A stretch of DNA of 64,000 nt from IMG/VR virus record IMGVR_UViG_3300034374_005671, positions 1 to 64,000 of that record; one strand, 5' to 3'. The translations under genes and the position numbers were made by a program. The notes below the pieces were generated by a model. That model was given only the letters and a program-made list of their open reading frames with translations, ran no database searches and was not told the DNA's origin. This document shows, in pieces, positions 690 through 63,538 of this stretch (position 1 is its first letter; each line of letters begins with the position of its first letter). Source of the DNA: a virus.

Positions 690-1601
690 ATGTATTCAGA
701 ATGCTTTGAAATAGTCAAAGGTAGAGTTTATCGTATTGTAGAAAAAGTAGACGATTCAACTCCAGGAGGATTAAGAGATATCAATAGATATAAAATGGTA
801 TCATACACCGCTGAACCAGCAAGATGCTTGTACATCGGTAACCCTGAAACAGGTAGATATGATACTGGATTTGATGAGAACTCAGTTGAGTTTGCAGGAA
901 AATCTAGCTCTGAAGCCGCGAAAGTTATAAAAGAAAGAAAGGACCTTATCGATTGGTTTAACAGAAAGAAAGAAAATTATTTCAAGACCAATCCTACAGC
1001 TACCGAAAATGATTTTATAGCTTCCGATAACTGCGGTATTGATTTGTCTCACAATGTGATTATTGATACAAATGACATGGACCAATACTTTAAGCTTTAC
1101 ATGGCTTATAGAGGAGGTCAACTTACTCCGCACTGTGACCAAAGTAACCCGAGATATAACGGGTCTTTATATTCAGTAGTAGATACTACTAAGAGTGCAG
1201 AGGACCAAACTACAGCATCTGAAAAGAAATTAGAAGTAATGACTTGGTTTGGAAACTTACACAAGAAAGATTCTGACAGGTTGAAGCAATACTTACAGTA
1301 TGTAGGAGCTTTACGAAGAGGTCAGAGTGCAACAAAAGGTGTAATGCTTTCACTCTTAGAAAAATGGATTGCAGACTCTAGAAACTTAGAATACATTCTA
1401 GAGACAATCAAAGAAACTGATTACGAAGAAATCTTAATTAAGAATAGGATTAACGATTTCGTAAAAAGAAGAAAAATTATTAAAGAAGACGGAACCTATT
1501 ATATAGACGGTGAAAAGCTAGGAAGAACTGTTAATCAAGCTTATGTTACCCTAACTAAGGTTGGAAACGAAGAACTCCTAGAGAAACTTCAACTTGACTG
1601 A
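690..1601 (+). CDS. Conserved-looking structural or packaging protein, 303 aa
   Basis: A soluble protein with mixed alpha/beta composition and no signal peptide or membrane segment. It begins MYSECFEIVKGRVYRIVEKV and has a mainly helical C-terminal half (about residues 180-303), which includes a possible winged-helix-like end where a short strand-turn-strand (DGTYYIDGEKLG) follows a basic helix. Its stop codon overlaps the start of the next gene (TGATG), so the two are probably translationally coupled. Its position, before a connector-like protein and an abundant structural protein, suggests a role in the head or neck. I do not recognise the family and cannot assign a function. Confidence 0.75.
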   Translation: MYSECFEIVKGRVYRIVEKVDDSTPGGLRDINRYKMVSYTAEPARCLYIGNPETGRYDTGFDENSVEFAGKSSSEAAKVIKERKDLIDWFNRKKENYFKTNPTATENDFIASDNCGIDLSHNVIIDTNDMDQYFKLYMAYRGGQLTPHCDQSNPRYNGSLYSVVDTTKSAEDQTTASEKKLEVMTWFGNLHKKDSDRLKQYLQYVGALRRGQSATKGVMLSLLEKWIADSRNLEYILETIKETDYEEILIKNRINDFVKRRKIIKEDGTYYIDGEKLGRTVNQAYVTLTKVGNEELLEKLQLD

Positions 1602-2269
1602 TGGATATACAAGAAGCATACTTAAGATTTTTAACTAAGGTAAATAAGAACTTAAGTTCTAATAATATAACTGCTTCTAAAGACAGGTTCGTTCTTCTTT
1701 ATAATGAAGAACAGATAAGACGGGTAGAGTACATTCTTGACAATAAGAATGATGACGAGATTAGAGAGATTAACACTTTTCTTGTTCAAAATAACAACCT
1801 ACCTCAAACATCACAGATAGATGACAAGGCGATAGTAGCACTGCCAGATGATTACCTAGACCTTTCCAGTGCTTATGCTTATGCAAAGTCAGCCGATTGC
1901 GAAGGGATTCGATTGAGTCTCTTTGAAATAAAAGACTTTGACTCTGAAAGCTACATATTCGACCCAAACAACGGTCCCTCTCTTAAGTGGAGAGAAGCTC
2001 CTTTCTATGTCGGAGCAAGAGCCTTGAACATCATTACAGATAACTTTGAAATAGAACGAGTACATTTATCGTATTATCGTCATCCACGAACAATTGATAT
2101 TTCGGGATACATAGACATAAATGGAAACGCTTCTACAGATATAGACCCCGAAGGTGACGATGCTTTTGTTAATAAAGTAATTTCGATGTGCGCAGAGTCA
2201 TTCTTCAGGAACTATGGGGATGCCAATCAATTTGGTATTCAAAGGGATAGGATTATTAATAACATTTAA
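1601..2269 (+). CDS. Probable head-tail connector / ring-type structural protein
   Basis: A protein of 222 residues. The middle part reads VALPDDYLDLSSAYAYA, then a stretch ending in LSYYRHPRTIDISGYID at about residue 165, followed by acidic residues and a helical C-terminus (VNKVISMCAESFFRNYGD). A beta-rich core with a 'Y-x-R-x-P-x-x-I-D' strand and a C-terminal helix is the general pattern of small adaptor or ring proteins of Bacteroidota podoviruses that stack below the portal. That pattern is from general knowledge of the family; the assignment here is by resemblance only. It overlaps the previous gene by one base and is followed 21 bases later by the large structural gene. Confidence 0.6.
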   Translation: MDIQEAYLRFLTKVNKNLSSNNITASKDRFVLLYNEEQIRRVEYILDNKNDDEIREINTFLVQNNNLPQTSQIDDKAIVALPDDYLDLSSAYAYAKSADCEGIRLSLFEIKDFDSESYIFDPNNGPSLKWREAPFYVGARALNIITDNFEIERVHLSYYRHPRTIDISGYIDINGNASTDIDPEGDDAFVNKVISMCAESFFRNYGDANQFGIQRDRIINNI

Positions 2270-2290
2270 ATTTAACTAAAACTCGAAATT

Positions 2291-4708
2291 ATGAATTCAC
2301 GTTCTCACAATTCAGCGTATTCACGCTTGATGGTTCTCTCAGAATTGGGAGGCCAATCAGTGGCCACTGCAGGAACAGGGTCACTAAGACTTGCTAATGG
2401 GCAGGTTGGTTTATTTAGAATGGCCTCTAAAACTGCAAACGGGCCAACCGCAGTAGCAAACCTTGACGGTTACGGAGCAAAAGAATTGTTCCAAATTCAA
2501 GTTGGTACAGGTCGCACACAGGATGCTGGTAACATGACTAACAAGAACTTTTCAACAATCTCTTTCACAAGAGATGATATTCTTGATGTCACTGTTGACA
2601 CAGCTAAAGCTCCTGTATATTCTTCTGTAACTTTAGGTTACAACGGAGTAGCTGGTACTGGTATCAAACTAAAAGAAAATGAGGCTACTACAGTTTCATT
2701 AAAATTATTCGGTGAGCAACTTTCTTACCTCGGTTTCCGTGATGGAGTTGCTAATATGGAATTCAGCGTATTCTCAGGCTCTCCTGATGCTTGTGATAAC
2801 TGTTTAAATCCATGTGCTACTACTTCTTGTACTTCTATCGTAAGAGACCTAGTTGAAAACATTAGAACTTACGAACTTCGTGCTGGTTCTGATGCTGGAA
2901 CAGGTGCATCTATCAAAGTAGGTGACTTAGTAGACGTTATCGGTACTTACTCTTGTACTCCTGACTTAGTACCTTCTGCTACTACTGTTAAATACAGCCT
3001 CACAATAGAGGATGAAGGCACTGGCGAAGCATTAGCTGCAGTTGCTTCTCAATATACCGAAGATGTAGAAAGAATTTCTAGAGAAGGAATTACTTCTGTT
3101 TATCAATTAGTATCAGGAGGAGGTCTTCCTGCAGCTTTCCAAGCACCTGCTAGTATACTTATTGATGCCTCTGGAGATGAAAGAGAGGTTCGAATTCTTG
3201 AAGATTGTGATACATGCCCTGCAGGTTTCACTCAGTTTCCTGCAAGTGGGGATGGATTCCTTTACCAAGTAGTATTACCTGAAGGCGTAAATACAAGTAA
3301 CGTTCTTGCTCAACTTCAAACTGATACTGCTGTTACTGCTGCTAACTCTTCACTATTAGATACAAATACAAGAGGAACTGGTCCTGTAGGAACAGAAATC
3401 ATTATCTTGAATCTAGATGTGGAAATTACTGTTGAAGAATTAATCGCATCATTAGATAACGATGCAACATTAGCCTTGACTCCTGCTGAGTACGAAGCTT
3501 CTGCTGTTTCACCAGCTGATGCCATCTGTGTTGGCGATGTTGACTATGTAGCTACAACTGCTTGGGTTGCAGGTGAAACTTGTAATCTTTACCAAAAAAC
3601 AATTCAACTTGATGTAGACTTGGATTGTGGTCCTTTCGCTACACCAGCGGCTAAGACTACTGCTGCTAATGCTAAATTAGCTGAGTTACAAGCTATCTAT
3701 CCTGATTTAAGTGTAACGCTTAACGCTGCTAATATCGGAGATTGTAGAGCACGTTTTGACGGAGTATTGACTTCAGAACCAGTATGTGATGGTTGTGAGG
3801 TTGAAGAGCCAATCTTCCCAGCTATGCCAGATGACTATGAGTTTTCTGCTTGGTCTGAAAGAACTGTAGCAGAAGGTGAAATTACTTCTTACACTATCGC
3901 AGCAGGTACACTTTCTGTAGATGCCGCTGATGGAGGTGCAGCAGGAGCTGAAACTTTAACTCAAGGAACTTCTGCAGCATTTGTTTCTACAAGTGGTAGC
4001 GGAACAGGAGCAGTTGTAAAAGTTGAGCTTGATGCTGCAAGTAACACTGTTACTTCCGTAGCCCTTGCTGATGGAGGTGAAGGATTTGCAGTAGGAGATA
4101 CTATTTCTCTTAACATTGCTTTAGCACCATTCTCTACATCTTCAACAGGTACAATCACTCTTACTATTACAGGAGTTGGTGGAGAGTTCCCAGACGATTG
4201 CGAATGTGGTATCAAATTCGTTGCTAAGAACGCTTTCTTATGTCCTCCAGCAATGCTTGCAGAGCAAATTGGAACTTTCACTCCTAAAGGAGTTAAAATC
4301 CAAGTTTCTGGTGGTGAAGCTCCTTCAGTACTTCAAGAGGGTTACCAATATGTAACTACTCCATTCCGTGTAACTCGTCACGAAAGAGACTTTGACGGAA
4401 CTAGCTGGGGTATTAACTACGTGAAGCAAGAGAAAGCTTCTGCTGAGTACTTCGCTGGAATTTCTCCACGAATGAGCTACGCTGAAGGTTACTTGAGTGG
4501 ATTCGAAACTAAGCTTGAGCCTTGTTTACAATATGACAAGTTCACAGTTAAGTTGAGAAGAAACAACTACGCTGGAACAGCAAGCCGCAGAATGGCTGAG
4601 GAAATCAGATACGTATTCTTGATTCCTCAAGGTGCTCAGTGCGCATACCAAGACTTCATTGAAGCTCTAGGTGGAGTGACTGAATGTCCCACAGTAGCAG
4701 GAGTCTAA
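2291..4708 (+). CDS. Large virion structural protein, 805 aa
   Basis: This is a beta-rich protein with many Ala, Gly, Thr and Ser residues and several Cys-rich patches (for example CDNCLNPCATTSC at about residue 172, CDTCPAG and CDGCEVEEP). Residues about 557-630 carry a Gly-rich repeat (GTGAVVKVELD ... ADGGEGFAVGDTISL) of a type seen in phage fibre and decoration proteins. The C-terminal 130 residues, starting near TPFRVTRHERDFDG, look like a separate conserved domain. It is followed by a strong dedicated terminator, and its codons look more uniform than those of its neighbours, both consistent with a highly expressed virion protein. It does not look like an HK97-fold capsid protein to me. 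Decoration, tail or head-fibre roles are all possible. Confidence 0.7.
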   Translation: MNSRSHNSAYSRLMVLSELGGQSVATAGTGSLRLANGQVGLFRMASKTANGPTAVANLDGYGAKELFQIQVGTGRTQDAGNMTNKNFSTISFTRDDILDVTVDTAKAPVYSSVTLGYNGVAGTGIKLKENEATTVSLKLFGEQLSYLGFRDGVANMEFSVFSGSPDACDNCLNPCATTSCTSIVRDLVENIRTYELRAGSDAGTGASIKVGDLVDVIGTYSCTPDLVPSATTVKYSLTIEDEGTGEALAAVASQYTEDVERISREGITSVYQLVSGGGLPAAFQAPASILIDASGDEREVRILEDCDTCPAGFTQFPASGDGFLYQVVLPEGVNTSNVLAQLQTDTAVTAANSSLLDTNTRGTGPVGTEIIILNLDVEITVEELIASLDNDATLALTPAEYEASAVSPADAICVGDVDYVATTAWVAGETCNLYQKTIQLDVDLDCGPFATPAAKTTAANAKLAELQAIYPDLSVTLNAANIGDCRARFDGVLTSEPVCDGCEVEEPIFPAMPDDYEFSAWSERTVAEGEITSYTIAAGTLSVDAADGGAAGAETLTQGTSAAFVSTSGSGTGAVVKVELDAASNTVTSVALADGGEGFAVGDTISLNIALAPFSTSSTGTITLTITGVGGEFPDDCECGIKFVAKNAFLCPPAMLAEQIGTFTPKGVKIQVSGGEAPSVLQEGYQYVTTPFRVTRHERDFDGTSWGINYVKQEKASAEYFAGISPRMSYAEGYLSGFETKLEPCLQYDKFTVKLRRNNYAGTASRRMAEEIRYVFLIPQGAQCAYQDFIEALGGVTECPTVAGV

Positions 4709-4732
4709 TCGACTGATTCATTAACCTAAGAA

Positions 4733-4758
4733 GGGGGAGGGTATCCTCCCCCTTTTTT
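4733..4758 (+). terminator. Rho-independent terminator after the 805-aa structural gene
   Basis: A perfect 8-bp GC stem (GGGGGAGG at 4733-4740, CCTCCCCC at 4745-4752) with a GTAT loop is followed directly by six T residues (4753-4758). It lies 25 bases after the stop of the preceding gene and reads rightward. Confidence 0.93.
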
Positions 4759-4772
4759 ATAAATATATTATC

Positions 4773-4859
4773 ATGGCTAGTAATCCAGGACTATCAAAAT
4801 TTTTTGAAAGAATGCGTGAACTCGCAGAAAAAATTAAACAACAAAATAACGGGAAATGA
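4773..4859 (+). CDS. Small 28-aa protein before the fibre cassette
   Basis: An ATG at 4773 opens a 28-codon frame (MASNPGLSKFF, then a helical Lys/Glu-rich end) whose TGA overlaps the ATG of the next gene (ATGA, 4856-4859). That coupling is the main reason to believe it is translated. It starts 14 bases after the T-tract of the terminator, in an AT-rich leader. The peptide is predicted to be one amphipathic helix. No function can be assigned; a leader peptide for the fibre operon is one possibility. Confidence 0.55.
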   Translation: MASNPGLSKFFERMRELAEKIKQQNNGK

Positions 4860-5905
4860 GTTTATCTAAGTACACAGCGAGTACGCCCACATACGACTTC
4901 TCTATACCAAAGGAAAGAGTAATTAAACAAAATTGCAACATTCCTGTAGGGTATAAGAGACTTTCGTGTTATTTCGCAAATACTGCGGAAAATGGCGTTT
5001 ATTTTAAAGTAGGACAAGAAGGTGCAAAGACTATTGCACTTGGAGGACCTTTAACAGAAGACACAATTGTAGGAAACACTGAGACTGACTTTTCTATCGC
5101 CATCAGTACAGGTGATGATAAGAAAGGAGGTGCAGGTTTTATAGCTATTGAGAAGTTAGATGATAATGGGAAACTGCCTCAAGGTTTTCCCCTTAGAGAC
5201 TTCTTTACAATAACTGATGCTACCGCATTCCCAGGCACCCAAAAAGTAATTAATGAAGAAGGTGCAGTACTATATGTTTCTAAGTTTGAAAACGATTTAA
5301 CTAGAGGACAGTTTGCAATAAAAACAGTCGGTCTAGACTCAGAAGGAACATTAAACCTTCTAAATCCAGGTCAACCTGCTATTTATAGCACAGACATTAC
5401 AACCTCCTATGAGAGTGATGCATATTCCTTTTTAGCTATTAACAACTTAGGAAATCCTGCTACTTTTGGTACGGCAGGAAAGGCTGGTATAATTGTAAGT
5501 GCAACTTCTGTAAGAGAGGATGCAGTCATAAATGTGCTGTCTAGAACTCAGGATGCTACCAAAAATGCAGTAACTACGGTGTCTGCCGAGGATTTTACCA
5601 CGGATATAGGACATTCTTTAGTCCTGCAAGTAAATGCAGGGGTTAAAAACTTTAACTATTCTAAAGTTGTACCAAGCACTAATACCACAACACCAGTCTA
5701 TAGCTTTCCCACACCTAACACATCACCTGGAGCAAATCAAATGCTCATAACAGATAGTAACAGTGTACTTCAGTTTTCTGATATACAAGCTGTACTAGCC
5801 CTTGTACCTGCATATGTAGACAATGCTACTGCTGTTGGAGCAGGATTAGTTGTGGGTGATACCTATTATAACACAACTAGTACTACATATACTAGAGTAG
5901 TATAA
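4856..5905 (+). CDS. Tail appendage / fibre structural protein
   Basis: This 349-residue protein is rich in Thr, Ser, Ala, Gly and Asn with alternating beta propensity and no hydrophobic segment or Cys clusters. The first 60 residues (STPTYDFSIPKERVIKQNCNIPVGYKRLSCYF) look like a folded attachment domain. The rest looks like stacked beta-sandwich or fibre repeats, ending in a short region (AYVDNATAVGAGLVVGDTYYNTT) typical of fibre tips. It opens a run of short fibre-like genes, and the next gene starts 11 bases later. Assignment as a virion appendage comes from composition and context rather than a recognised domain. Confidence 0.6.
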   Translation: MSLSKYTASTPTYDFSIPKERVIKQNCNIPVGYKRLSCYFANTAENGVYFKVGQEGAKTIALGGPLTEDTIVGNTETDFSIAISTGDDKKGGAGFIAIEKLDDNGKLPQGFPLRDFFTITDATAFPGTQKVINEEGAVLYVSKFENDLTRGQFAIKTVGLDSEGTLNLLNPGQPAIYSTDITTSYESDAYSFLAINNLGNPATFGTAGKAGIIVSATSVREDAVINVLSRTQDATKNAVTTVSAEDFTTDIGHSLVLQVNAGVKNFNYSKVVPSTNTTTPVYSFPTPNTSPGANQMLITDSNSVLQFSDIQAVLALVPAYVDNATAVGAGLVVGDTYYNTTSTTYTRVV

Positions 5906-59377: not shown

Positions 59378-59563
59378 CTATTTATTCTTTGCGACACTAT
59401 ACTCAGTATTGTTGTCTGCGTTAACATTCAAGAGGTCTACTAGTTTTTTAGCCTCTTCTTTCGATTCTAAGTTTAGTACAACTCCCAAACTGTCTAACAA
59501 ATATACGCTAGAAGAAGGTAATTGAGAGTGTACTTTAACTTTTTTTATGATTTTATATCCCAT
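59378..59563 (-). CDS. Small hypothetical protein, 61 aa
   Basis: A protein of 61 residues that overlaps the end of the M23 gene by 11 bases and is followed one base after its TAG by the DUF3310 gene, so it is tightly packed in the operon. It contains a beta-strand pair (YKIIKKVKVHSQLP; VYLLDSLGVVLNL), then a helix (SKEEAKKLVDLLN). The strand-strand-helix order is that of many small phage accessory proteins. No family or function is recognised. Confidence 0.65.
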   Translation of the reverse strand: MGYKIIKKVKVHSQLPSSSVYLLDSLGVVLNLESKEEAKKLVDLLNVNADNNTEYSVAKNK

Positions 59564-60263
59564 GGGTAATATAGTGTCTACCTTTTTTAATTAAATTAAT
59601 ACTATCGCTCACAAGGGTTGAATCATCCAAGTTGATTATCAACTCAGGGTCGATAGGCACACCTAAGAATCTTGTTTCCAAGTGAAGGTGGGGACCTGTA
59701 GAACGCCCTGTGGACCCAACTAGTCCAATTGCATCCCCTGCTTCTAGTGTGTCTCCTTGTTCTACAAATAATTTTCTGTGGTGGGCATAGTAAGTCTCAA
59801 GACCATTGAAGTGTCTTATAATAACTAAGTTACCATAACCTCCGTTATAACCCCTCTTTGAATACCTTACTACTCCAGGAAACATACTTTTCGTAGTGTC
59901 CCTGTTATTGTATGCTATGTCGATACCATCGTGACTTCTGCCCCAACGCCATCCGTATCCGCTTGTCATTCTCCCATCTACAGGGTAACAATACTCGTGT
60001 TTGTGAGTCACTAAGGGAAGTGTTACAGTATCAGGGGCATCATAATCCCTGTAATGCAATCTATCCCACGAATACGTAGAATCATACAACGTATCGCCCA
60101 TAAGAACTGCTGTATCCAAATCAAACGTAGAGTCTACAATTATAGCAGTCTCTATATCGTAATAATTGTTTACAGTCTTACTGTTTAGCGATGCCCAAAC
60201 CCATAGCATCAATACAGTAATCAATACTAATTTCCAATCAATCATATTTACTTTATGTTCCAT
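59553..60263 (-). CDS. M23 family metallopeptidase (lysostaphin-like), membrane-anchored
   Basis: Cleaves peptide cross-links in peptidoglycan. Residues about 8-26 (IDWKLVLITVLMLWVWASLN) form an N-terminal membrane or signal anchor. Residues about 92-210 are the M23 domain: MTSGYGWRWGRSHDGIDIAY has the HxxxD motif (His111, Asp115), followed by GNLVIIRHFNGLETYYAHH and the HxH motif in GPHLHLE (His192, His194). All three zinc ligands are present, so it is probably active. Its ATG lies 3 bases after the stop of the endonuclease gene. With the amidase downstream it makes a lysis pair, though tail-associated use is also possible. Confidence 0.9.
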   Translation of the reverse strand: MEHKVNMIDWKLVLITVLMLWVWASLNSKTVNNYYDIETAIIVDSTFDLDTAVLMGDTLYDSTYSWDRLHYRDYDAPDTVTLPLVTHKHEYCYPVDGRMTSGYGWRWGRSHDGIDIAYNNRDTTKSMFPGVVRYSKRGYNGGYGNLVIIRHFNGLETYYAHHRKLFVEQGDTLEAGDAIGLVGSTGRSTGPHLHLETRFLGVPIDPELIINLDDSTLVSDSINLIKKGRHYITHGI

Positions 60264-60265
60264 AA

Positions 60266-60349
60266 TTATTTTGCTTCATACCATGATGTGCCAATATTGG
60301 CTTCTGCCCCCATCTCCACTAATCCACTACTAAGATAGTAATTTCCTCC
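60266..60349 (-). repeat. Displaced copy of the DNA polymerase 3' end, fused to the endonuclease
   Basis: The last 28 codons of the endonuclease gene match the last 28 codons of the DNA polymerase (61281-61364). By eye 21 of 28 residues are identical (AEANIGxSWYEAK at the end) and 61 of 84 bases match. The family A polymerase end is normal in the polymerase, so this copy is the odd one. Confidence 0.9.
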
Positions 60350-61093
60350 TCTGCTATCCTCCACTTCTCCAAAACTTTTAATACACAATTCTACACCACC
60401 TGTCCTACATTCCGTCATACCCTCAAAATCAATAGAGGGTGTGTACTTGTATTCTTTTGTCAAACGTAATAATTTTTTTTCTAATTCCCAAATTTTAGAA
60501 GCTTCGTTTTCCACGATAGCGACTACTTTGTATTCATAAGGTAGTCTTCCTGAAAAACGTTTCTCCAAAGTATCCCCTGTTATGCCTATTTTGTAGAACA
60601 CCTCCTCATCTTTATTCAATTCTAAGATATATAATTTAGGGTTTTTTTCATTGCTCTTTTCTACCCATCTGTCTTTCTTGTAAGCAGAGTAGTAACCACA
60701 CTTAGGACAACCATGCCCCCTCTGATGGTGTAATGGTTGTTGCCAAAACTCTCCGTGGGTGGGGCAAGTAATTTTCATATCTTCTTGAGAGAGAGTAATG
60801 GTTTCGGGGTGATAAGTGTATTTACCCCCATGAACTGTTTTAAACTGTTTTATTTTTTCTAAAGGCTTTATACTATCTCTTTCTTTTATGTAATCGGCAT
60901 AACATTTTTTACAGCCTGTGTTTACACTTCTTAAATGTAATTGAGGAGAGGTTTCAAACTCAGTATTATGTTTATTACAAAAAACATTTATGCTATTTTT
61001 AGAACCTTTAATTACATCAGGATAAGAAAACTTATCACCATGCATATCTCTGAACCTTTCAATCCAGTCTTTAGTTGTCAGATACTTTCCCAT
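60266..61093 (-). CDS. Homing-endonuclease-like protein (DUF723 zinc motifs + GIY-YIG-type domain) fused to a polymerase tail
   Basis: A protein of 275 residues. Residues about 28-60 and 100-140 carry two DUF723-like treble-clef units (VFCNKHNTEF ... CKKCYADYI; ITCPTHGEFWQQPLHHQRGHGCPKCGYYS), typical DNA-binding parts of phage homing enzymes. Residues about 145-235 have the T5orf172/GIY-YIG-like order KLYILELNKDEEVFYKIGIT, R-containing helix, KIWELEKKLLRL and FEGMTECR. The last 28 residues are a second, diverged copy of the DNA polymerase C-terminus. The module lies directly downstream of the polymerase gene, its target by inference. The start overlaps the ribbon-helix-helix gene by 23 bases. 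The DNA appears more AT-rich than its neighbours, consistent with recent transfer. Confidence 0.82.
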   Translation of the reverse strand: MGKYLTTKDWIERFRDMHGDKFSYPDVIKGSKNSINVFCNKHNTEFETSPQLHLRSVNTGCKKCYADYIKERDSIKPLEKIKQFKTVHGGKYTYHPETITLSQEDMKITCPTHGEFWQQPLHHQRGHGCPKCGYYSAYKKDRWVEKSNEKNPKLYILELNKDEEVFYKIGITGDTLEKRFSGRLPYEYKVVAIVENEASKIWELEKKLLRLTKEYKYTPSIDFEGMTECRTGGVELCIKSFGEVEDSRGGNYYLSSGLVEMGAEANIGTSWYEAK

Positions 61094-61226
61094 TGTCTTG
61101 CTCCATTGCTTTTATTATAACCATTCTAATATAGGAAGACATATCAAGTCCTAGCTTATCAGCCGCCTTTCTTACTCTTTCTTTTAACTCAGAATCAGTT
61201 CTTACTATTATTTGTACTTCTTTCAT
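61071..61226 (-). CDS. Ribbon-helix-helix repressor / antitoxin-like protein, 51 aa
   Basis: ATG at 61226, TAA at 61071-61073. The sequence MKEVQIIVRTDSELKERVRK, then AADKLGLDMSSYIRMVIIKAM has the RHH order: a beta strand (VQIIVRT), helix A (SELKERVRKAADKLG) and a turn with helix B (DMSSYIRMVI). This is the DNA-binding fold of Arc/MetJ, RelB/DinJ-type antitoxins. It overlaps the endonuclease start by 23 bases, so the two are co-expressed. It probably represses its own promoter and the endonuclease. There is no toxin-like partner besides the endonuclease itself. Confidence 0.85.
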   Translation of the reverse strand: MKEVQIIVRTDSELKERVRKAADKLGLDMSSYIRMVIIKAMEQDNGKVSDN

Positions 61227-61229
61227 AAT

Positions 61230-61267
61230 TACAATGTTACTACAATTTTATCAATTATCCAAATTTA
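61230..61267 (-). promoter_or_regulatory. Promoter-like and operator-like sequence before the RHH gene
   Basis: Reading leftward, TAAATTTG (61267-61260) matches the Bacteroidota -7 element TAnnTTTG exactly. Nearer the start codon, ATTGTA occurs twice (61246-61241 and 61235-61230), 11 bases apart, i.e. one helical turn, as expected for a tandem ribbon-helix-helix operator. A well-spaced -33 TTG is not evident. Confidence 0.5.
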
Positions 61268-61280
61268 TTACAAAATACTT

Positions 61281-61364
61281 TTATTTTGCCTCGTACCAAG
61301 AGTCTCCTATATTCGCCTCTGCCTTAATATCTACTAAGCCACTTGTTAAATAGTATTGTCCACC
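61281..61364 (-). repeat. DNA polymerase 3' end, partner of the displaced copy at 60266-60349
   Basis: These are the last 28 codons of the polymerase gene. Together with the copy at the end of the endonuclease they form direct repeats that bracket the RHH/endonuclease module (about 0.9 kb between them). Both copies lie in frame at the end of an open reading frame. Confidence 0.9.
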
Positions 61365-63305
61365 TTTAATCATGCAGTCCTCAAGCACTTTTTTATACTC
61401 ATCTACTAGGCTTTCATCCACCTCAAGAACAAATTCATCATGGGGTATATTACATATTCTTACCTTTCGAAAATGTCCATTGTCTACTATATAATCAAAA
61501 AGTAAACAAGCGGCTCGTTTTGTCATATGTGCTGAAGTCGCTTGAACAGGGTTGTTCAAGGCCAACCTGAAGTATTTTCCTTGCCAAGAAAAGTACTTAG
61601 AAAGTTTAGGTCTCATCTTTGTATATACCTTGTATGCCTCTTTGTTTACTACGGTATATGTCTCTCCTTTCTCTTCAGCCTCTTTTTTCTTGTTAGCTTC
61701 TACTTTACCTGCCTTGTACAGCTTCTTATCAGCTTCTCCTGTAGCATCCATCCATTTTTTAAGGTCAAGGAATTGGTCAAACCAAGGAAGGTCTAATTTA
61801 AAACCATCTGCTGATTCTACCCACCCATTCTCAATGGATTCTTGCAGTTTCTTTCTGCCCCAAGTATATACTCCAGGATGTAGTTCTTTGTATAGCTGTT
61901 CTAATCGTTCCCCTTCCTTTACCTCGATATTAAGACTCTTAGCTGCTGTAAAGCCTGTCCCACCATACGAGAAACAGAAGCGAGGTGCTTTGGAGAACTG
62001 CCTTTTATCTTTATGGTTGTTTTTAATTTCATCGTCAGTTAATTCTTGCAGTTCAGGGAATATCAATCTTGCGAATGCAGAGTGTAAATCATCTCCATTC
62101 TTGATTGAGGATATCATCATTGCATCTTGGTGGAGGTCAGCACCGACCACATTTTCTTGGCCTTCGTAGTCAGCCACGACCATTTTATATCCATGTGTAG
62201 CCACAAAGCAATCCCTAGTTCTCTTATTAGCTGGAAAATTAAGAATATTAACCCCGCCACGCCTAGTAGAAATTCTAGCAGTATCCAGCACAGGATTAAA
62301 ATCAGTATAAATTCTGCCATCTTTAATTTTATTTAAAATGTTTTCTCCGTATGTAGATACATCATGCTCTGCTTGTTTGTATGTTAACCATAACTCTACG
62401 AAAGGGTGGCTACTTCTCCTAAGAACATCCTTGTGTAGAGTCTTCTTGTCAGGGTTCTCATCCGATTGTACATCAATACCAAACTCCTCAAAGATAGGAA
62501 TCATTTGTAGAGATGACGACAATAAGGGGATGATACGTGGAGAGCTATCAAACATATCTATCTGTCTGTCCCTATATTTAGGTAACTCGTCATAGACAAA
62601 TTTGACCACATCATCCTTAGCTTTTTCTAGAGCAATCTTGTCTTGCTCAATTTTATCTTTCCATTTAGCTTCTGATATTGGGATACCACACTGCTCCATA
62701 TAGGCAAGAGCTCTGATATATCGACAATGTAGCTTGAATGTTGGTACACATCCTCTGTCTCGCAACCTTTCCCCTAAAACTTTAACTAATTCTAATACTT
62801 TGTCTACGTCATTGAAAGCATATCGAATAGCTTTTGGATTTGACAATTGGGTCTTAGCAATGTTCTTTTGCTCACTCTTATCATAGCTGATACCCAACTC
62901 ACGCTCCATCACAAAACCAAAACCGTGTCTTGTAATTAAACCGTTTCCGTTGTAAAGTATTTTACTTGCAATAAATGTATCGTAAACTTTTTTAGGTACA
63001 AAGTTATATTTGTATAACCACCCAAGGTCGAATGTAAGGTTGTGACCAACCAATGTCTTGCCTTCCAGGAAAGGAGCCACCTCATCAAATGTTATCTCTC
63101 CTCCTAATTGTTGAAGGTCTATAATATAGTTGTCCTTCCCTGTACCTATCTGCACAGAGAACATATGACCGTCTATAGGTTTGAGGGAGGTAGTCTCCGA
63201 GTCAAACGCAATAACATCAGGTAGCACCATATCTTCTAAGGTGCAATAATTGTACGCTCCTATCTTCTCAAAGAAAGGACGATTGTTTGTTATGATATAA
63301 TTCAT
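61281..63305 (-). CDS. Family A DNA polymerase with 3'-5' exonuclease
   Basis: Replicative polymerase, 674 residues. Exonuclease motifs are intact: ExoI FDSET (Asp35, Glu37), ExoII GHNLTFDLG (Asn89, Asp93), ExoIII YAFND (Tyr162, Asp166). Polymerase motif A is VVADYEGQENVVGAD (Asp379; Glu384 at the position of E. coli Glu710). Motif B is RQFSKAPRFCFSYGG (Arg435, Lys439, Tyr447), and motif C is IPHDEF (His622-Asp623-Glu624). A charged, Lys/Glu-rich insertion of about 30 residues precedes the last third. The C-terminus ends IGDSWYEAK as is usual for family A. The start overlaps the upstream gene (ATGA). A homing-endonuclease module lies immediately downstream. Confidence 0.95.
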   Translation of the reverse strand: MNYIITNNRPFFEKIGAYNYCTLEDMVLPDVIAFDSETTSLKPIDGHMFSVQIGTGKDNYIIDLQQLGGEITFDEVAPFLEGKTLVGHNLTFDLGWLYKYNFVPKKVYDTFIASKILYNGNGLITRHGFGFVMERELGISYDKSEQKNIAKTQLSNPKAIRYAFNDVDKVLELVKVLGERLRDRGCVPTFKLHCRYIRALAYMEQCGIPISEAKWKDKIEQDKIALEKAKDDVVKFVYDELPKYRDRQIDMFDSSPRIIPLLSSSLQMIPIFEEFGIDVQSDENPDKKTLHKDVLRRSSHPFVELWLTYKQAEHDVSTYGENILNKIKDGRIYTDFNPVLDTARISTRRGGVNILNFPANKRTRDCFVATHGYKMVVADYEGQENVVGADLHQDAMMISSIKNGDDLHSAFARLIFPELQELTDDEIKNNHKDKRQFSKAPRFCFSYGGTGFTAAKSLNIEVKEGERLEQLYKELHPGVYTWGRKKLQESIENGWVESADGFKLDLPWFDQFLDLKKWMDATGEADKKLYKAGKVEANKKKEAEEKGETYTVVNKEAYKVYTKMRPKLSKYFSWQGKYFRLALNNPVQATSAHMTKRAACLLFDYIVDNGHFRKVRICNIPHDEFVLEVDESLVDEYKKVLEDCMIKGGQYYLTSGLVDIKAEANIGDSWYEAK

Positions 63306-63538
63306 TCATCAGGATTCTCGTCAGGGGTCAAACAATCCCCTTTAAAAAATATCTCCTTGCTTAGAACTTCTTCTAGCTGTAATAACTCATCATCTTCCAA
63401 ATCATACACATCGATGTAGTCAGGAACTGAACCTGTAGCTAACAGTCCTGCTAATCTAACTAGGTCATCTTCACATCTAACCTCTTTCCCATATATGTAA
63501 AGACAGCAGTCTTTTACTTCAAATTTTTTACTTGACAT
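63302..63538 (-). CDS. Small acidic hypothetical protein between helicase and polymerase
   Basis: A protein of 78 residues overlapping both neighbours by a few bases (ATGA at the polymerase start), so translation is coupled. A short strand region (VKDCCLYIYGKEVR) is followed by a helix (EDDLVRLAGLLATGSVPDYIDVY) and an acidic stretch (LEDDELLQLEEVL), ending in acidic residues. No domain is recognised. Its place between SF2 helicase and DNA polymerase suggests a replication accessory. Confidence 0.7.
   Translation of the reverse strand: MSSKKFEVKDCCLYIYGKEVRCEDDLVRLAGLLATGSVPDYIDVYDLEDDELLQLEEVLSKEIFFKGDCLTPDENPDE

Follow-up and report, generated by a model that had tools for sequence, protein, structure and literature searches.

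The window, that is, the whole stretch of 64,000 nucleotides that was analysed, comes from a virus record of 83,369 bp and carries genes for a family A DNA polymerase, an RHH protein, an endonuclease, and an M23 peptidase, in this order and all on the minus strand. The intact polymerase ORF (61281–63305, 674 aa) consists of a resident part (61531–63305), which encodes the 3′-5′ exonuclease and most of the polymerase domain (Pfam DNA_pol_A_exo1 and DNA_pol_A) and has 94.5–95.0% DNA identity to the related contigs L003 and L004, and a foreign 3′ end (61281–61526), which comprises the last 82 codons, with the HDE motif C (residue 622) and the stop codon among them, and is delimited by a drop in identity to the same two contigs. 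An intergenic spacer (61227–61280) with a weak match to the Bacteroidota −7 consensus TAnnTTTG (61267–61260, consensus match alone) separates it from the intact RHH gene (61071–61226, 51 aa). The endonuclease ORF (60266–61093, 275 aa) is intact as well and is composed of the endonuclease proper (60380–61093, ~238 codons), a short piece of resident polymerase DNA that is read out of frame (60353–60379, SFGEVEDSR) and ends in a small indel, and the displaced original 3′ end of the polymerase gene (60266–60352), which is in frame and forms the last 28 codons and the stop codon. The M23-peptidase gene (59553–60263, Pfam Peptidase_M23) lies downstream, and it directly follows the polymerase stop codon in uninterrupted relatives. 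The polymerase and endonuclease genes thus end as intact ORFs where the first-pass annotation had placed their ends, at 61281 and 60266, respectively. The last 82 codons of the polymerase gene, the RHH gene, and the T5orf172/GIY-YIG-like endonuclease gene together make up a segment of ~1.15 kb. The window and contigs L007 and L035 represent one phage (99.94% identity over 8.7 kb), which was the only carrier of the element (two 99.94% identical contigs).

The endonuclease is predicted to consist of two treble-clef Zn fingers and a T5orf172/GIY-YIG-like nuclease domain. It looks intact, with all conserved residues present, namely the eight Zn-finger ligands (C39, H42, C61, C64 and C110, H113, C129, C132) and the nuclease-domain residues Y155, K168xG170, R179, E205, and TEC229, which are invariant columns in the alignment of its relatives. 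Residues 8–230 matched the PHROG family phrog_681 ‘endonuclease’ (E = 1e-35). Twenty relatives were aligned, with T5orf172 detected in 12 (E ≤ 0.01), DUF723 in 10, and DUF4379 in 10, and the score of the enzyme itself against Pfam T5orf172 was 15.6 bits, under the gathering cut-off of 20. The first-pass annotation had named a DUF723/GIY-YIG-type endonuclease; the probable assignment here is by relatives and motif. AlphaFold modelled the protein with a mean pLDDT of 79.5, with ~90 for the nuclease domain and good confidence up to residue 243, while the tail (residues 244–275) had a pLDDT <50 and no confident structure. The fold assignment rests on sequence, since a Foldseek search of the model against the PDB returned nothing at E ≤ 0.001; a PDB sequence search with the endonuclease returned nothing relevant. 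The RHH protein is RelB/Arc-like, with sub-threshold matches to Pfam RelB/NikA/CopG, a match to TIGR02384 RelB_DinJ (E = 7e-7) that is below the cut-off, and affiliation with phrog_582 (Arc-like repressor). A single weak phage relative of its gene was found. The RHH protein is perhaps a regulator of the endonuclease.

The ends of the polymerase and endonuclease genes are alike in 21 of 28 residues and 61 of 84 bases (72.6%), the same counts as given by the first-pass annotation. Its 84-base match therefore stands, but the divergent part of the polymerase gene and the displaced copy are both longer than it had described. By tblastn, the tail match had an E-value of 4e-13 in the near-identical locus L035 and of 5e-9 genome-wide. 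Among polymerase relatives drawn from viral contigs, six related contigs (L003, L004, L005, L006, L016, and L019) lack the insert. Their polymerases end with ...GGN[YH]YLSSGLVEMGAEANIGxSWYEAK and are followed by the same M23 peptidase gene five bases further. The displaced end in the window has kept the original stop codon and the spacing to the downstream gene, with TAATTATG after the stop codon common to the window and L003, L004, L005, L016, and L019. The last 84 bases of the endonuclease-fused copy (60266–60349) are identical to the resident polymerase end of L005 (84/84) and match those of the other five contigs at 79–82 of 84 positions. The uninterrupted genes of L003–L006 have 94–100% identity to the displaced copy versus 68–73% to the present end of the window polymerase, and a tree built from the last 84 bases places the displaced copy among the resident polymerase ends and the window's own polymerase end outside. 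It is thus the endonuclease-fused copy that the uninterrupted alleles fit better, which supports the earlier proposal of an insertion with replacement that displaced the original end by ~1 kb. There is also a recombination boundary at the end of the same polymerase gene among contigs that lack the endonuclease: L003 has 73–74% identity to L005/L006 in the polymerase body and 92–94% in the last 84 bases, followed by a well-conserved downstream module.

The left junction lies within the polymerase gene. Compared with L004, 5.0% of the sites of the window polymerase differ up to 61530 and 29% from there to the stop codon (0.050 to 0.292 per site), and the comparison with L003 gave an identical breakpoint (Fisher p = 2e-25 for the contrast). 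In terms of identity to the window, both contigs fall from ~95% up to 61530 to ~70% beyond (breakpoint at 61530/61526), while L003 and L004 compared with each other have no identity step at 61530. Divergence sets in 160 bp ahead of the duplicated part, and the co-converted flank on the polymerase side amounts to at least 246 bp relative to element-free alleles. The foreign 3′ end is in frame with the polymerase gene. Since motif C is within the swapped part, an insertion that brought no replacement end would be expected to inactivate the enzyme, judging by family A polymerase biology. The nearest sampled tail to the foreign end is that of L021 (78.6% identity, with a 35-bp exact match at 61529–61495), which has neither insert nor endonuclease. 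Within this match, the window and L021 read CAT ATG where L003–L006 read CAT/CAC CAA; Met at that codon is also encoded by L116. A donor with the same foreign end and the endonuclease was not found in viral contigs queried with the polymerase end and the endonuclease, nor in genome contigs scanned with the endonuclease.

At the right junction, resident DNA resumes at 60379–60383 in blastn alignments with every uninterrupted relative. An exact 18/18 word, AAAAGTTTTGGAGAAGTG (60379–60362), is shared with L004 and is read in another frame by the endonuclease gene. Past a TAT-to-GAG change and a short indel (residents, GATAG--AT; window, GATAGCAGA), the reading returns to the polymerase frame. What survives of the resident end is its last 114 bp, with which the endonuclease gene now closes; ~140 bp of the resident gene have been lost between the two junctions. 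Position 60379 corresponds to codon 638 of 674 in the polymerase. The right junction is non-homologous and sets the 3′ end of an endonuclease gene against the middle of a polymerase gene. As out-of-frame resident DNA lies upstream of the in-frame tail, the tail is a relic of the insertion and not a domain of the enzyme's own.

We consider an intron-free homing endonuclease element that replaced the end of its target gene to be the probable history of the locus (roughly 85%). In the donor phage, a polymerase gene with a diverged end would have been followed immediately by the genes for the RHH protein and the T5orf172/GIY-YIG-like endonuclease. During a mixed infection, the endonuclease may have cleaved the polymerase gene of the resident phage a short way 3′ of motif C, and the left broken end would have been repaired by homologous copying from the donor polymerase gene, with a crossover at or upstream of 61530. 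Copying would have imported the last 82 codons of the donor gene together with the RHH and endonuclease genes, and on the other side the broken 3′ part of the resident gene was apparently attached at 60379, through short homology or by end joining, with loss of the ~140 bp and conversion of the final 114 bp into the 3′ end of the endonuclease gene. With the replacement end the essential polymerase would remain functional, and because this end is diverged it may lack the cleavage site and so protect the carrier by recoding; the element may also be mobile at present. A gain in the window is favoured on parsimony over a loss in L003 and L004: the resident end is found in every element-free lineage, the outgroup L005/L006 among them, and the remnant fused to the endonuclease gene is resident DNA. 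The order of the window, L003, and L004 in the tree of polymerase bodies had moderate support (72).

Four other histories were weighed against end replacement. If the tail belonged to the endonuclease family as a native or selected domain and resembled the polymerase by common use or domain capture, it would be expected to be in frame, uninterrupted, and closed by a stop codon, which it is, and the tail of the unrelated HNH enzyme of L116 described below is in frame, too. Such a domain should, however, recur in the family, and a copy of an upstream gene's end was absent from 43 other endonuclease-family loci and from two other endonuclease genes behind polymerases. Homologous endonucleases with the same tail at unrelated loci, or a tail native to the family, either of which the first-pass annotation had named as evidence against its own proposal, were not found among these 43 loci. 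The out-of-frame extension of resident-polymerase homology upstream of the tail, its perfect identity to the resident end of L005, and its low pLDDT likewise speak against a native domain, which we regard as hardly credible; given the tailless loci and the low pLDDT it was rejected. Two copies in direct orientation would result if the polymerase 3′ end had been duplicated in tandem within the lineage and the copies had later diverged, with an endonuclease inserted between them. This history is extremely unlikely, as the upstream copy is 27% divergent and the downstream copy unchanged relative to residents, and divergence sets in sharply ahead of the duplicated part and not at its start.

Splicing of the polymerase body to the displaced tail, from an intron or intein-like insert, has parallels in the crAss-like phage cr116_1, in which an HNH enzyme related to that of L116 is found within an intron-like polymerase insert, and in L116 itself, the polymerase gene of which contains an insert with a LAGLIDADG gene further upstream. 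In the window, on the other hand, the polymerase has a full ORF that includes motif C and an end of its own, and since the resident end is reduced to 114 bp, a splice to what remains could only begin inside the foreign end. There was also no Rfam match up to E = 1 in 60000–63500 and no intein domain among the Pfam hits, in line with the earlier view that neither intron nor intein is needed, and we consider splicing very unlikely. Ordinary homologous recombination between phages or assembly chimerism, with the endonuclease as a passenger, is unlikely. Polymerase modules are exchanged in this phage group (L003 and L005 have 74% identity in the bodies and 94% in the last 84 bases), yet both junctions are also present in a second contig (L007), the right junction is not homologous, and the same architecture is found with a different nuclease in L116.

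Phage homing endonuclease genes are common beside essential genes. To our knowledge, the entry of a free-standing endonuclease into a coding region without killing the host gene has usually been inferred and seldom been seen; for this single phage locus, the sequences show the two junctions, the foreign end, and the displaced remnant as well as the empty site. The order of foreign C-terminus, endonuclease ORF, and displaced native C-terminus is known from fungal mitochondria, first from Allomyces atp6, then from Glomus atp6, atp9, cox2, and nad3, and also from Rhizopus atp9 and Mortierella cox2 (PMC3630166). In Glomus, relatives have 91–98% nucleotide identity to the native end and 64–81% to the inserted end (PMC3630166). 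The window shares with these elements a foreign C-terminus in phase, an endonuclease ORF between the two ends (LAGLIDADG or GIY-YIG in fungi), and a displaced end that is nearer to element-free relatives. It differs from them in that the host is a dsDNA phage, the target is an essential replication gene whose catalytic motif falls within the swapped part, the endonuclease carries the displaced end as an in-frame fusion, and an RHH gene is carried along. The phage element is thereby linked to a long-known mitochondrial arrangement. The first-pass annotation knew of no description of the arrangement for family A polymerase genes. A fungal precedent exists (PMC3630166). For phages and for DNA polymerase genes, a search of literature mostly without subscription papers found no account of an end being replaced and a displaced remnant left behind, which weakly suggests that there is no earlier one.

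Among phage systems, free-standing T4-type endonucleases such as SegG perform intronless homing with co-conversion (PMC2988022), and like these the present endonuclease gene adjoins its target without an intron and with a co-converted flank. For those reviewed cases, there is no mention of a second, displaced copy of the target's end (PMC2988022), and the present locus looks homologous on one side only, the other side being an illegitimate junction within the target gene. T5orf172 enzymes are classed as phage homing endonucleases of a GIY-YIG subfamily; their genes cluster near essential genes, and they have treble-clef or DUF723-type DNA-binding fingers, as does the putative enzyme here; in the parts of that source available to us, target-end replacement is not reported for them (PMC10448857). 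The gene-splitting insertions mobE in Aeh1 nrdA and mobA in T4 gene 60 also place a homing endonuclease gene within the coding region of an essential gene (PMC2988022). Unlike these, which split the gene into two needed polypeptides, the polymerase was made whole by its replacement end.

We screened ~80 polymerase loci for a second copy of the gene's own end and recovered one independent case, L116. Its polymerase gene (1042–4417) ends with DLEIKAEAHYGPDWYSAKG and is followed, after a 74-base gap, by an HNH endonuclease gene (4492–5223) that ends with ...NDTFKTELNIKADAATGESWYSAKG and has as its last residues ELNIKADAATGESWYSAKG, the displaced polymerase end in frame. A 75% identical HNH enzyme behind the polymerase of L129 stops at ...NKTFKKL and lacks the tail, so two unrelated nuclease families have the same arrangement at the same gene end. 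A search for an empty site with the L116 polymerase and its downstream gene returned L116 itself as the sole match. The L116 polymerase gene is also broken in its middle, by an insert with a LAGLIDADG-like gene (2330–3301). Nuclease genes behind the polymerase gene without a displaced end were found in L008 (T5orf172), L010 (HNH with NUMOD), L129 (HNH), and L144 (LAGLIDADG). In L144 (4456–5226), the gene adjoining the family A polymerase gene encodes a LAGLIDADG_3 protein of 256 aa. In cr116_1 (L149, 990–3965), the intron-like insert splits the polymerase gene just before motif C, its HNH gene is related to those of both L116 and L129, and the gene halves are annotated as two separate ‘DNA polymerase I’ genes. 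From the nuclease genes and inserts at these loci, the 3′ part of the polymerase gene emerges as a repeated target.

Another 80 HNH loci were screened for a second copy of the end of the upstream gene without yielding a further 3′ case; the hits obtained in L182, L196, and L200 look like short, low-complexity, or internal-repeat matches. Tentatively, and at somewhat less than even odds, gene-end replacement may be a general and unrecognised route by which several unrelated families of phage endonucleases enter essential genes without introns or inteins. It would have been taken independently by T5orf172/GIY-YIG-like and HNH enzymes at the 3′ ends of family A polymerase genes and, in mirror image, at a 5′ end in L222, with the displaced end kept in frame because this preserves the stop codon as well as the region where translation of the next gene starts. 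As a search signature, one may use a gene end that recurs on the far side of a nuclease gene, and whole-gene polymerase phylogenies should be read with the caution that such genes can be mosaics. In L222 (3697–4923), an HNH gene lies ahead of a phrog_624 gene (MNIFYLSPNAK...), and immediately upstream of that HNH gene is a second, diverged phrog_624 start (GTG, NIFYISTDPIIAAQMMVDRHVVK); the arrangement is probably a mirror-image 5′-end swap of the gene start.
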